Shown here: positions 37,729 through 43,331 of the stretch, piece by piece
Layout: the number at the start of each line of letters is the position of its first letter
Position numbering within the stretch: position 1 is the first letter of the stretch
Assembly (NCBI GenBank): GCA_030625815.1
Contig: DAOUQF010000004.1
Span: 1 to 64,000, forward strand
DNA length: 64,000 bases
Source of the DNA: Eubacteriales bacterium
Lineage (GTDB): Bacteria; Bacillota; Clostridia; Tissierellales; GPF-1
Direction: 5' to 3'
Program-made: the position numbers and the translations under genes
The notes under the pieces: model-generated
What the model saw: the letters and a program-made list of their open reading frames with translations, nothing else
Told to the model about the DNA's origin: nothing
Database searches by the model: none

Positions 37729-38184
37729 CTATTTCTCGATAATTTTGTGAAATTCAGCCTTGATACCATCAATATCCGCTTGATCGGATATGGCGATAAA
37801 CACCGTATCGTCTCCAGCAATCGTACCGATAATTTCATGCATATCCAATACATCAATCGCCGATGCCGTGATAGATGCAGCACCTGAAATTGTTTTAATA
37901 ATCACCATTCTTCCGGAGGAGTCAATCGCCAAGACAGAATTCTTGAAAATATTCGTCAAACGCTCTCGAAGGGCATCAAAATTGGTCTCCATCGTTGCAT
38001 ATTTGTATCGTCCATTTCTCGTCAATGCCTTGATCAAACCCAATTCCTTTAAATCCCTCGATACCGTCGCCTGTGTGATCGCAAATCCGTCTCGTTTCAA
38101 AAGCGCCGACAATTCTTCTTGGGTCTCGATTTCATGGAGCTTAATTAATTTCAATATATGGCTCTGTCTCGCATACTTTCTCAT
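37729..38184 (-). CDS. argR: arginine repressor ArgR
   Basis: 151-aa hexameric arginine-responsive regulator. The N-terminal winged helix (ATVSRDLKELGLIK near 40) binds ARG boxes. The C-terminal domain has IAGDDTVFIAI near 125, which binds arginine through its aspartates. It overlaps the tlyA stop (ATGA) and precedes recN. Confidence 0.95.
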   Translation of the reverse strand: MRKYARQSHILKLIKLHEIETQEELSALLKRDGFAITQATVSRDLKELGLIKALTRNGRYKYATMETNFDALRERLTNIFKNSVLAIDSSGRMVIIKTISGAASITASAIDVLDMHEIIGTIAGDDTVFIAISDQADIDGIKAEFHKIIEK

Positions 38185-38978
38185 TTCTTCTCCCCCTTTT
38201 GATACGCGTCAAATACGATTTTCTCGATTTCTTCCGCCGGTATTGACCCGTTTTTATCCGCATTGATATGTAAAAGAAACTCAACATTCCCCTTCTTTCC
38301 CTGGATCGGAGAGGGAATGATTCCCTGCAAATAATAGTGTCCGGCTTCCAACTCAAGGATCAATCTGCGCAAACTCTGAAGCACAACCTTTGGATTTCTT
38401 ACAATGCCATTCTTCGAAAGCGCTTTCTTCTCCGTCTCGAATTGCGGCTTGAACAAAAACAGAAAACAGGCTTCTCGATCAGACAATCTCAATATATCAG
38501 ACCAGATTTTTCGAATCGAAATAAAGGAAACATCCGCCACAACAAGCTTGGGTTTCACGAAAAGCTCCTCGATTTCAATGGAGCGAATATCTCGATTTTC
38601 CATCACTAAAATCTGCGGATTGCTCCTGAGGGAATCGCTTAATTGACAGTTTCCCACATCGATGGCATACACAGATTTTGCTCCATGATTCAACAGGCAT
38701 TGCGTAAAACCGCCCGTCGATGCGCCGACATCCATGCACACTTGATCTTCTACGGGAACTGCAAACTCTTGAAGCGCAGCTTCGAGTTTCAATCCCCCTC
38801 GACTCACAAATGGAATGGAATTGCAGCTCTCTTCAATTCGATCTCCCTCGTGAATGGAATGGCTGGGTTTTTTTATGATCCGCCCATTCACGGTGAAATC
38901 TCCATTCTTTATCCGTTGTACAGCTCGCGAACGACTGATTTCTGCAAATAATTGGGTGATTGCTACATCAAAACGCAT
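38181..38978 (-). CDS. tlyA: TlyA-family rRNA methyltransferase
   Basis: 265-aa protein with an S4 RNA-binding domain (about 1-60) and an FtsJ/RrmJ-like SAM methyltransferase domain (DVGASTGGFTQCLL near 80; K-D-K-E-like catalytic set expected). Family members 2'-O-methylate rRNA cytidines (16S C1409 and/or 23S C1920) and are called TlyA/YqxC. It starts within the oapA stop (TAATG). dxs, usually beside tlyA in this cluster, is absent. Confidence 0.9.
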   Translation of the reverse strand: MRFDVAITQLFAEISRSRAVQRIKNGDFTVNGRIIKKPSHSIHEGDRIEESCNSIPFVSRGGLKLEAALQEFAVPVEDQVCMDVGASTGGFTQCLLNHGAKSVYAIDVGNCQLSDSLRSNPQILVMENRDIRSIEIEELFVKPKLVVADVSFISIRKIWSDILRLSDREACFLFLFKPQFETEKKALSKNGIVRNPKVVLQSLRRLILELEAGHYYLQGIIPSPIQGKKGNVEFLLHINADKNGSIPAEEIEKIVFDAYQKGEKK

Positions 38979-39544
38979 TATTTCTTCTTCCCCTTCTTCA
39001 ACTCCTTCATCACACGGATATGAAATTTCTCATCCAAAATCTGCAGGATCCGTGCAACCTCCATAACGATCTCCTTATGGCGAGACAAGGCCAACTCTTT
39101 TCCAAAAGCCTTGCCGCCTACCGTTATCGCGGCAAGAACCCCGCTGAAAACAATCGAAAGCCAAAACAAATCTTCTCCCGGAAAACGAGAAACAACACGA
39201 AAAATGATAGAGGCGCCTGCGACACCGCTAATGATTCCGCAAATATCGCCGATCACATCATTGCAGAAGTTGGATACTTGGCTCGCATTGCGCACCAATA
39301 AAACCGCATATTTCGCCTGATAGTTTCCCTTCGCCGACATGGCATGAAAGGGCTTCTCAGAGCTTGCGGCCACTGCAATTCCAATGGTATCAAAAACAAC
39401 CCCTACAAATACGATAAAAAACAGAATCAAGAAGGCCAAAACGAGGTTTGCGCGACTGATGACTTGATCTGAAATTAAGCTTGTAAAGATTGCAAGTATA
39501 AATGTTATCAATATGGTTTTATAAATCCAATTATATCGTTTCAT
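38978..39544 (-). CDS. oapA: OLE-associated membrane protein OapA
   Basis: 188-aa integral-membrane protein with four predicted helices (about 7-25, 34-60, 98-118, 126-147) and a strongly basic C-terminus (KELKKGKKK). A DxxxD motif lies at Asp96/Asp100 (NDVIGD), and DTIGIAVAAS follows helix 2. In OLE-carrying Firmicutes, OapA binds OLE RNA, localises it to the membrane and carries a DxxxD motif. This gene lies immediately downstream of the RNA, with AAAGGAG directly after the RNA's terminator. Identification is by architecture, motif and location. The protein's biochemical activity is unresolved; roles in Mg2+ and stress tolerance have been reported for the complex. Confidence 0.88.
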   Translation of the reverse strand: MKRYNWIYKTILITFILAIFTSLISDQVISRANLVLAFLILFFIVFVGVVFDTIGIAVAASSEKPFHAMSAKGNYQAKYAVLLVRNASQVSNFCNDVIGDICGIISGVAGASIIFRVVSRFPGEDLFWLSIVFSGVLAAITVGGKAFGKELALSRHKEIVMEVARILQILDEKFHIRVMKELKKGKKK

Positions 39545-39555
39545 AAGACTCCTTT

Positions 39556-39584
39556 AAAAAAAGCTGATAGCATAGGCTACCAGC
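39556..39584 (-). terminator. terminator hairpin at the 3' end of OLE RNA
   Basis: On the minus strand a 9-bp stem (GCTGGTAGC/GCTATCAGC, one G-U) around CTAT is followed by seven T. The oapA ribosome binding site begins within two bases of the T-run, so partial readthrough would feed oapA. Confidence 0.85.
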
Positions 39585-40132
39585 TAATAGATGGAGGGTT
39601 AATGGTAAATTTTGCGGCTTAGGTCCAGCAGGATTTCCCAAACGAAAACTGCCTGTCGCCATAGCAGCGGTTCCCCTTTCATTTCGTTTCATCCGCGTCG
39701 CCACAAGAAGAGCTGGATCACCACTTAGGCCACACTGCAATCCCAATAACCTCTAAGTCTAGGAGTTTTCCTCTACAACCTCTGCGTATCCTTATCCGCT
39801 TTTGCAGAAGGGGTTTCAATAGCAAAGTGTTTTTTCTCTTGGCCTTCGATCAAAAACACCGATCTATTATCCACCGCTCCCACTCATGGCAGGCTACGCT
39901 GCAGCGAGTTTACACTCTCTGCAGGTTATCTTATTACGCTTCCATAATAAGTCTCCACGGAGGTAGGGTCATCGCCCGCATGCCATTGCAGATCGCCCCA
40001 TCCTCCTTACTCCCAGAATCTCCCCCCGACTGGGCGTCAGAAGAATCAACCAGGAACTTCATCGATATGCCCTTTGACGGATTTTTAGCCCCGCCTTCAG
40101 GATACGTTCAGTTGACTAGAATACTTTTCCAT
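39556..40132 (-). ncRNA. ole: OLE RNA (ornate, large, extremophilic)
   Basis: The 624-bp gap between ispA and oapA has no credible gene but a promoter, a terminator and dense RNA structure on the minus strand. Structures include a nested hairpin with CTGCAG arms and a GTAA-capped inner stem (39899-39924), a 7-bp hairpin (39930-39951) and an 8-bp helix joining 39640-39647 with 39682-39689. The 577-nt size, the setting (xseA-xseB-ispA-RNA-oapA-tlyA-argR-recN) and the downstream four-helix DxxxD protein match OLE RNA. OLE forms a membrane-bound complex with OapA in extremophilic and anaerobic Firmicutes and is linked to cold, alcohol and metal tolerance. Its mechanism is unknown. Confidence 0.93.
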
Positions 40133-40138
40133 CAATTT

Positions 40139-40167
40139 ATTATAGCATGAACTGGTTTTTTGAACAA
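40139..40167 (-). promoter_or_regulatory. OLE RNA promoter
   Basis: TTGTTC (40162-40167), 17-bp spacer and perfect TATAAT (40139-40144) on the minus strand, overlapping the ispA stop codon area. Transcription should begin at about 40132. The RNA can therefore be made independently of the long upstream operon. Confidence 0.82.
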
Positions 40168-40168
40168 A

Positions 40169-41029
40169 TTAAGATCTTCGATTTAACATTTCATTTACAA
40201 TGGTTTGCAATTCTTCATTGTTTCCAAAGGAAGACACAAGCTCATCCGCCTGAACAAACAAGTCTCGAATTGTTTCTTTTGTCTGTTCAACCCCATACAA
40301 TTTCAAAAATGTCAGTTTTTCATTCTTTTTATCCGATCCGATGGGTTTCCCCAGCTCTTCAACGGTTGAAAAGACATCCAAAAGGTCATCCTGCAATTGA
40401 AACGCATATCCGATCACTTCGCCTAATTTTTTCAGCGTTTCGCATTCCTTCTCGCTCGCGCCCCCCAAAATACCACCGACTTCCAAGGCCGTTCGGATGA
40501 GTGCCGCGGTTTTCTTTTGATGAATAAAAAGCAAGTCGTTTTCCTTCGCTTCTTTGCCTTCAAAGAGCAGATCCGCTGTTTGACCGCCGATCATCCCCTG
40601 AATCCCGGCAGCGGTAAACAGAGAACGAGCTGCTCGCAAAGAGGTTTTCGGTTCTTCCGCCGACAATCCCGCTGCAACGACAAGCTCCATTGCCTGATTC
40701 AATAACCCGTCACCGGCTAAAATCGCATTTGCTTCTCCATGAGCAATATGGCAGGAAGGACGGCCGCGACGCAGATCGTCATCGTCCATGGCAGGCAGAT
40801 CGTCATGAATTAAGGAGTAGGTATGAATCATTTCCAAGGCTGCCGCATAGGGATAAATCGCCTCTTCCCGCTCTTCAAACATTCGATATGCCGCAATCAT
40901 CAAAGAGGGGCGTACACGCTTGCCTCCCCCCAATAAACTATACCGCATGGCATGGATAACCGGCGCTTCATATCCCGAGCGCTCGGGAATTGCCTCCGAT
41001 AAGAAATTTTCAAACATTTCATGGTTCAT
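40169..41029 (-). CDS. ispA: polyprenyl diphosphate synthase (farnesyl/geranylgeranyl type)
   Basis: 286-aa class I trans-prenyltransferase that condenses IPP with allylic diphosphates. The first Asp-rich motif DDLPAMDDDD lies near residue 77 and the second, DDLLD, near 216. Both are intact. Residues before the first motif (YSLIH) fit C15 to C20 products; exact chain length is uncertain. It overlaps the xseB stop by 4 bp and lies directly upstream of the OLE promoter. Confidence 0.93.
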   Translation of the reverse strand: MNHEMFENFLSEAIPERSGYEAPVIHAMRYSLLGGGKRVRPSLMIAAYRMFEEREEAIYPYAAALEMIHTYSLIHDDLPAMDDDDLRRGRPSCHIAHGEANAILAGDGLLNQAMELVVAAGLSAEEPKTSLRAARSLFTAAGIQGMIGGQTADLLFEGKEAKENDLLFIHQKKTAALIRTALEVGGILGGASEKECETLKKLGEVIGYAFQLQDDLLDVFSTVEELGKPIGSDKKNEKLTFLKLYGVEQTKETIRDLFVQADELVSSFGNNEELQTIVNEMLNRRS

Positions 41030-41235: not shown

Positions 41236-42391
41236 CCTGTTCCTCCTCAACGAGAATTTTTTGACTTGTCGTCGATCCATGCAGCTGATAAACTCCTGCC
41301 GGTACCGTTTGATCATTCCTCACAAATTGTCCTTTTTTGTCTTGGAGCAAAAACCGAAACGGTTCCCATCGTTTTACAAGGGCGACTTCCGTCTCCCGGG
41401 AATCGGCTAGGATTCGATTCCATGTATCCAAGCGATTCACACTTTCACGAAATACTCGCTTGTGCTGCTTTGAAAATCTCAATTCCAATTCACCGATTCG
41501 CTGTTCGATCTCTCTCGCGATCGACCGCTGGAATTTTGATTGCTGAGATTCAATCCGCTTCAACCGAAAGGTGATTTCAATCCTTGCCTTCCATTGCCCC
41601 TCAACCAGCCTTTGACGGATTTGTGAAATCGTTGGAACTGCCAGTTCCGCAGCTCCAGTAGGTGTAGAGGCCCGGGCATCGGCGGCAAATTCCGCAAAGG
41701 TCCAGTCCTTTTCATGTCCGATTGCGGCAATCACAGGAACTTTAGAATCAAATACCGCTTGAACCACTCGGATATCGTCAAAGACCTCGAGATCGCTCGT
41801 ATCTCCGCCGCCACGCGTCAAAATTACGCAATCCAGCTTATGACTTGCAATACGGCGAAACGCCGTCTGAATGGCTCCAGCCGCTTGATCTCCCTGTACC
41901 AACACTGGAACAACAACCAACTCCACAAAGGGATAGCGGCGTTCCATATTTCGCCGAACATCATCGATTGCAGCTCCATCCTTCGATGTGATAAGGCCAA
42001 CCACCCGCGGATATTTTTTTAGGCTTCGCTGATTGACAAAGAGGCCTTTTTTCTTCATCTCTTCAAACTGCAGATTGCGCTGAATTTCTCGCTCTTCCTT
42101 CTTCGAAATTTCAATCGATTCAACATGGAGCCGCAGGGTTCCCCGTTTGCTGTAATACCGCACAGCACCAGTAACAATATATTCGTTTCCTTCCTGCAAT
42201 GTTTCTTCTATGGACTGAAACGAAACACAGGCCAGCATCGCTTCCTCATCTTTCAAATGAAAAAACGACCACTGGCTCGACTGTCGCAGATTCGCCATTT
42301 CTCCAACGACTCGAATCTTTCTAAGCACAGGATCGGTTCTCAGATGCTCTTCAATATAATAGTTGATTTGACTAACCTGTAAAGGATTCAT
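41222..42391 (-). CDS. xseA: exodeoxyribonuclease VII large subunit
   Basis: 389-aa catalytic subunit that degrades single-stranded DNA. The N-terminal OB fold ([12 protein letters not shown] to about 100) is followed by the catalytic domain with LTRGGGDTSDLEVFDD near 190 and IGHEKDWTFAEFAADARASTPT near 230. ATG 42391 follows GGAGGG. It overlaps xseB by 14 bp. Confidence 0.94.
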   Translation of the reverse strand: MNPLQVSQINYYIEEHLRTDPVLRKIRVVGEMANLRQSSQWSFFHLKDEEAMLACVSFQSIEETLQEGNEYIVTGAVRYYSKRGTLRLHVESIEISKKEEREIQRNLQFEEMKKKGLFVNQRSLKKYPRVVGLITSKDGAAIDDVRRNMERRYPFVELVVVPVLVQGDQAAGAIQTAFRRIASHKLDCVILTRGGGDTSDLEVFDDIRVVQAVFDSKVPVIAAIGHEKDWTFAEFAADARASTPTGAAELAVPTISQIRQRLVEGQWKARIEITFRLKRIESQQSKFQRSIAREIEQRIGELELRFSKQHKRVFRESVNRLDTWNRILADSRETEVALVKRWEPFRFLLQDKKGQFVRNDQTVPAGVYQLHGSTTSQKILVEEEQGGNL

Positions 42392-43331
42392 TAAATTCCC
42401 TCCATGCACGCCAAGCGCATCCCAATGCATGATCCGCCGAATAGTCTCCCCGCACAAAAAGCAAGGCTAGATCAAGATTTGCCAATTGTTTCTTAAGCGC
42501 CTCGCGGATGGTTCGACTCTCTGCAACACCACCGACAAGAATGACCGTCCTGCGATTCCTCTTTCTCGTTTCATAACGAATCATCTCCGCCAAGGCTTCT
42601 GAAATCTGGCAAAAGAGGGTTGCCGCAATGGTCTCCGGCGATTCCTGACCGATCATTTGATTTTGGAACCAGGTCTCGATCCCGGAAAGATTCCACCAAT
42701 CGTCAACGCGATGAACCCGATTTCTTGTCTTTATCGGCTTTGCATCAATCGCCATTTGGTCCAGCCACGGACCTGCTGGAAATCCCCCCTTGAGAGATAC
42801 CCCGATTCGATCAATCAATTGTCCGAAACTGATGTCCCGGGTCCCGCCGATCAATTCCGCGCCCGATTCGAACCAATGGCTCACATCGAGAATTTCGGTT
42901 GTTCCACCAGACAAATGAAACACCACGCATGGCTCCGGCGCAACACGCTCAAAAAAATCCGCAGCGTATAGATGATTCATTTGATGGGAAATCCGTACAA
43001 TCGGCGCATCATATATGGCAGCCAAGGATTCAGCGAAGGCAATTCCAACCTCAAAAACCGGCATATACGAGCCTTCTGCATCCCGCGGCTTATCTGATAC
43101 GGCAATCCCCGCTACGCTTCCTGTGCGCAAAACGGATGCCGCCCCTTCAATAAGGCGGGGAAGGTTTTGAACATGCTGAAAAAGGGCCTCCTGTTGTCGA
43201 AGCCCCCGTTTTCCCTCTGGAACCAATAAAACCTTTTTCTCCGAAAAAAGGATCTGCTGATTCTCATCAAGCACAACCATAGAGGTTGTATATGCACTTG
43301 TATCAATCCCGAGAAAGAGTCGATTCTGCAT
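42372..43331 (-). CDS. Kae1/TsaD-like protein (M22 family paralogue)
   Basis: 319-aa actin-like ATPase-fold protein. [12 protein letters not shown] lies at the N-terminus and HQMNH (HxxxH metal pair) near residue 113. [10 protein letters not shown] near 137 and a C-terminal [10 protein letters not shown]-like nucleotide loop follow. It is shorter and more divergent than true TsaD, which makes t6A37 in tRNA, and Clostridia often carry this paralogue between nusB and xseA. Its substrate is unknown; it may be a second carbamoyltransferase-like enzyme. It occupies the place of folD in the Bacillus cluster and overlaps nusB by 29 bp. Confidence 0.8.

Follow-up and report, generated by a model that had tools for sequence, protein, structure and literature searches.

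Organization of the OLE-oapA locus

Few bacterial RNAs whose biochemical function is unknown are as large as OLE, which has the membrane protein OapA as an obligate partner. In the window, by which we mean the whole 64,000-nucleotide stretch of DNA analysed here, from a bacterium of the order Tissierellales, an OLE RNA and an oapA gene lie in a neighbourhood that reads xseA, probable xseB, ispA, OLE, oapA, tlyA, argR and recN. The features of the locus are as follows.

38181..38978, minus strand: tlyA (S4 + FtsJ methyltransferase), the next gene after oapA
38978..39544, minus strand: oapA, 188 aa, ATG start, four predicted transmembrane helices, basic C-terminus
39245..39259, minus strand: DxxxD codons (D96-V-I-G-D100), invariant in relatives and equivalent to H. 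halodurans D100/D104
39549..39555, minus strand: Shine-Dalgarno sequence AAAGGAG of oapA, read from the sequence
39556..39562, minus strand: run of seven T 3' of the hairpin, read from the sequence
39562..39585, minus strand: hairpin AGCTGGTAGC-CTAT-GCTATCAGCT at the OLE/oapA junction, stem letters conserved across the order
39575..40148, minus strand: OLE RNA (RF01071), covariance-model match to the full model
40169..41029, minus strand: ispA-type polyprenyl synthase, the upstream gene of the operon

The OLE RNA lies upstream of oapA on the same strand, at a distance of 30 nt, and starts 20 nt after the end of ispA. Because of this 20-nt spacing, and because a promoter scan of the operon gave matches no more numerous than in shuffled sequence, ispA and OLE are likely to be co-transcribed. 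On the minus strand, OLE is followed by the hairpin, the seven T (39562-39556), AAAGGAG, TCTT and the ATG at 39544. The interval from the T-run to the ATG, which an earlier note on this DNA had put at 11 bp, is exactly 11 nt and contains the Shine-Dalgarno sequence. At the other end of the gene, the oapA stop codon and the tlyA ATG overlap by one base. Upstream of xseA, the minus-strand frame 42372-43331 encodes a TsaD/Kae1-like protein, which passed the Pfam cut-off for TsaD and missed the TsaD equivalog cut-off by far; its product is likely a Kae1-like paralogue.

The gene behind the OLE RNA encodes a typical OapA

The RF01071 match in the window spans the whole model (1-616) with 430.5 bits, against a gathering cut-off of 50, and is the sole OLE RNA in the genome. 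Its score is below those of the rest of the order, which reach 455-536 bits outside the genus. When this genome and 40 relatives were searched with the whole protein, strong OapA matches were obtained in 31 of the 41. OLE RNA was present in exactly those 31 genomes and in none of the remaining 10. The identity of the window's OapA to the proteins of the 30 other OLE genomes ranged from 40 to 95%. One additional weak match (G017, E 9e-4) was a 460-aa CNNM protein. That oapA is a real gene is indicated by the 94-95% identity of its product in two congeners and by a dN/dS within the genus of 0.035-0.045.

The 188-aa product carries the aspartates Asp96 and Asp100 just where the earlier note had placed them, with DVIGD read at residues 96-100. 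D96, G99 and D100 were invariant in an alignment of 26 relatives collected without a motif filter. A second set of 66 sequences, nearly all taken from named genome records, showed the same invariance, although this set was collected via motif patterns and is not independent evidence for the invariance of DxxxD. From 30 fetched loci, 28 pairs of DxxxD and TxGGK motifs could be read, and the OapA of one locus (L104) contains DxxxD as NICNDVIGDT. A class-wide OapA profile search matched 94 of 196 genomes, about 90 of them strongly. In Halalkalibacter homologues the two motif aspartates are at 100 and 104, the same numbers as in H. halodurans, and three Halalkalibacter relatives (L060, L064 and L080), standing in for H. 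halodurans OapA, were 42-46% identical to the window's protein.

Genes for the other two proteins of the complex, which the earlier note proposed to look for, are both present elsewhere in the genome. OapB is a 96-aa protein encoded between map and infA, with a match to PDB 7k9b, "OLE-associated protein B" (E 6e-9); a KOW Pfam search of the genome did not pick it up, and its location between map and infA revealed it. OapC is an L7Ae-type protein encoded between rpoC and rpsL, with a YbxF match (PDB 3v7e, E 1e-15). A second L7Ae protein, of the YlxQ type, is encoded beside nusA.

The window's locus thus resembles that of H. halodurans in having the gene directly 3' of ole, four predicted transmembrane helices, basic residues, DxxxD, and a genome that also encodes OapB and OapC. 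On the basis of the adjacency to OLE, the co-occurrence with it in 41 genomes, the invariant DxxxD, and the presence of OapB and OapC, we conclude with a probability of about 0.9 that the minus-strand product of 38978-39544 is OapA, a member of the OLE ribonucleoprotein. The earlier note was right to place OapA directly behind the OLE RNA, but its description of a divergent copy has to be given up. There are only five departures from residues common to at least 75% of 64 relatives, and the window's OapA is a typical, routine member of the family, which by itself opens no new question.

Two observations were made on other members of the family. A 0.8 Mb genome of the same class (G083) has two OapA-like genes (C1:74260-74757 and 171482-171982). 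In two genomes, G032 (L009) and G021 (L031), the oapA frame contains one internal stop codon beside a high-scoring OLE RNA, which may reflect either an error of sequencing or a recent degeneration of the gene.

A conserved hairpin at the OLE-oapA junction

The hairpin between OLE and oapA has a sequence-conserved stem, GCTG(A/G)TAGC / GCTATCAGC, and a variable loop. Most OLE loci of the order have the stem, as does one other family of the class. The RF01071 model does not include it as a helix, and the hairpin covers the final 11 nt of the RF01071 match. A pattern search found the hairpin in 24 of the 41 genomes, at a single place in each and in 23 of them directly 3' of OLE, and a reversed control pattern gave no match in the same 41. 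Across the class, the pattern occurred in 8 of 196 genomes, six times at OLE and twice (G173 and G203) in unrelated gene neighbourhoods. In an alignment of 34 distinct hairpin sequences, pairing holds in 99.7% of cells; both partners differ in two of the pairs, and four pairs never vary. The junction hairpin is absent from the Halalkalibacter OLE loci; the window's oapA starts 11 nt past a type of terminator hairpin not seen there.

One genome without OLE and without oapA (G024) retains the hairpin between ispA and tlyA, at a site with no Rfam match. Two genomes of the same family (G008 and G037) have OLE, hairpin and oapA at the equivalent place. Besides the window, the hairpin was located at L166:1498-1523.

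We considered whether these genomes use the hairpin widely as a terminator, and rejected this in view of its occurrence at one place per genome. That it accompanies tlyA independently of OLE was rejected as a general rule: of the eight genomes in which tlyA was found but OLE is missing, seven have no such hairpin in front of tlyA. The hairpin is probably the terminator of OLE. The conservation of its letters exceeds what a terminator needs, and shared ancestry also contributes to it. Since 11 nt separate the T-run from the start of oapA, expression of oapA would need either read-through of the hairpin or a start within a few bases after it.

OapA is predicted to share the fold of CNNM transporters

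An AlphaFold2 model of OapA, built with 66 sequences (mean pLDDT 86, pTM 0.78), has four long helices (residues 2-31, 34-60, 87-120 and 126-154) and a further helix at 156-174. Together with the basic C-terminal tail, KELKKGKKK, this agrees with the four-helix protein and basic tail that had been described from the sequence. A Phmmer search of the PDB with OapA gave no meaningful match. The model, compared with PDB structures, matched best to MtCorB (7m1t, Z 11.9, rmsd 2.9 over 132 residues) and, as a second CNNM-type match, to the transmembrane domain of a bacterial CorC (7cfg, Z 11.2), against Z 8.5 for the best unrelated fold, values of 11-12 being within the range for which the tool warns in the case of helical bundles. 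The Foldseek E-value of the model against CNNM was only 8e-3. At the level of profiles, the score of OapA with Pfam CNNM (PF01595) was 17.1 bits (E 0.0044), below the gathering cut-off of 28.4, and hhalign of the OapA profile with a profile of 18 CNNM proteins from this order gave P 1.6e-5.

The likeness to the CNNM/CorB/CorC/MpfA membrane domain lies in the predicted fold over OapA residues 32-171. As the structural match begins at residue 32, the membrane domain of OapA is predicted to consist of a CNNM/CorC fold with one extra N-terminal helix. In contrast to MpfA-type CNNM proteins, the 188-aa OapA has no CBS or CorC domains. A distant kinship of CNNM and OapA has already been published (PMC11332333); the match below the cut-off corresponds to it and does not move the protein into another membrane family.

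The Mg2+ ligands of MtCorB comprise Ser21, Ser25, Ser71 and Glu111 together with two carbonyls, those of Ser21 and Gly110; its Pro114 comes after a pi-helical turn (PMC8242095). Three MAFFT methods agreed in aligning G48 of OapA with Ser21, D52 with Ser25, G144 with Gly110, K145 with Glu111, G148 with Pro114, and K149 with Lys115; D100 aligned with Ser71 only to within one column. The equivalents of Gly110 and Lys115 are therefore retained in OapA, whereas Ser25 is replaced by Asp52, Ser/Asn71 by about Asp100, Glu111 by Lys145, and Pro114 by Gly148. Glu111 and Pro114 were invariant in all 18 CNNM proteins compared. By alignment, then, invariant residues of OapA appear to fall on the CNNM Mg2+ site, with two polar ligands changed to Asp and the sole acidic ligand to Lys, and Mg2+ binding at this site could have been lost with the ligand Glu. 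The missing proline and DxxxD are published differences between CNNM and OapA (PMC11332333); the Glu-to-Lys exchange did not come up in the accessible literature. The mapping of residues onto the Mg2+ site and the junction hairpin are modest, testable additions.

The weak Pfam match and the CNNM-like predicted fold would also suit a divergent CNNM/MpfA-type transporter that adjoins the OLE RNA by chance. We regard this as very improbable, since the Pfam score is under the curated cut-off, the conserved CNNM Glu and Pro are missing along with any CBS/CorC domain, oapA shares its genomes with OLE and is absent where OLE is absent, and 20 of the 31 OLE genomes encode a true CNNM protein as well as OapA. 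Strong CNNM proteins were likewise present in eight of the 10 OLE-less genomes (both counts from genomes G000-G040), and there were none in the window's genus. A family search of the window's genome revealed no MpfA/CNNM protein, the only match being OapA itself, below the cut-off. An anticorrelation of OLE and MpfA across Bacillota has been published (PMC11332333); in this order the exclusion is weak and only faint.

A possible role of OapA in the OLE complex

In H. halodurans, the DxxxD motif is altered in PM1, a D100A/D104A double mutant (PMC9723947). Its phenotypes are worse than those of an ole-oapA deletion and are relieved once the complex is otherwise broken (PMC9723947), which identifies PM1 as a dominant-negative allele of the assembled complex. 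The earlier note had described DxxxD mutants as reported to disrupt the complex, which is imprecise for a dominant-negative allele. Loss of the OLE complex leads to Mg2+ sensitivity (PMC9723947, PMC11332333).

By analogy with what has been shown or modelled for H. halodurans, OapA would sit in the membrane as a dimer and bind the OLE RNA encoded just upstream, holding the RNA at the membrane, while OapB and OapC, made from ribosomal-operon sites, would bind the RNA to form the OLE ribonucleoprotein. OapA might be nothing beyond a membrane anchor or assembly scaffold for the RNA, its CNNM-like fold being a relic without transport. The exchange of the ligand Glu for Lys145 and of the pi-helix proline for Gly148 is what such a relic might show, as is the loss of the regulatory CBS and CorC domains. 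However, D52, D96 and D100 put acidic side chains within predicted membrane helices; all three are invariant across the 66 relatives, and an anchor would have no need of them. The dominant-negative behaviour of PM1 and the Mg2+ sensitivity that follows loss of the complex (PMC9723947, PMC11332333) also speak against this reading. We think an anchor-only role unlikely, while giving it some weight.

On balance we favour a role in which OapA moves or senses divalent cations, as would fit the predicted fold, the Mg2+ phenotype, and the presence of aspartates within membrane helices. The invariant D52, D96, D100 and K145, being on or beside the CNNM Mg2+ ligands and of different chemistry, may form or gate an ion site. 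OLE RNA may take over the regulatory job of the CBS and CorC domains of MpfA, as has been proposed (PMC11332333, PMC12265935). In PM1, the complex would still assemble with a faulty transport or sensing step, giving the dominant-negative behaviour.

A more specific picture, which we hold only tentatively and find rather doubtful as a whole, is that OapA has the CNNM fold with a remodelled Mg2+ site (Ser25 to Asp52, Ser/Asn71 to Asp100 with Asp96 one turn earlier, and Glu111 to Lys145), now a membrane Asp/Lys switch gated by the OLE RNA in place of CBS/CorC, and that, separately, the GCTGATAGC/GCTATCAGC hairpin has a sequence-specific role here beyond termination.

The window's copy adds one ordinary member to the OapA family. 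For the family, the comparison names new residues to probe beside DxxxD, namely D52, K145 and G148, each with a structural reason, and the conserved OLE-oapA junction hairpin is an element to keep or test in OLE constructs from these anaerobes.
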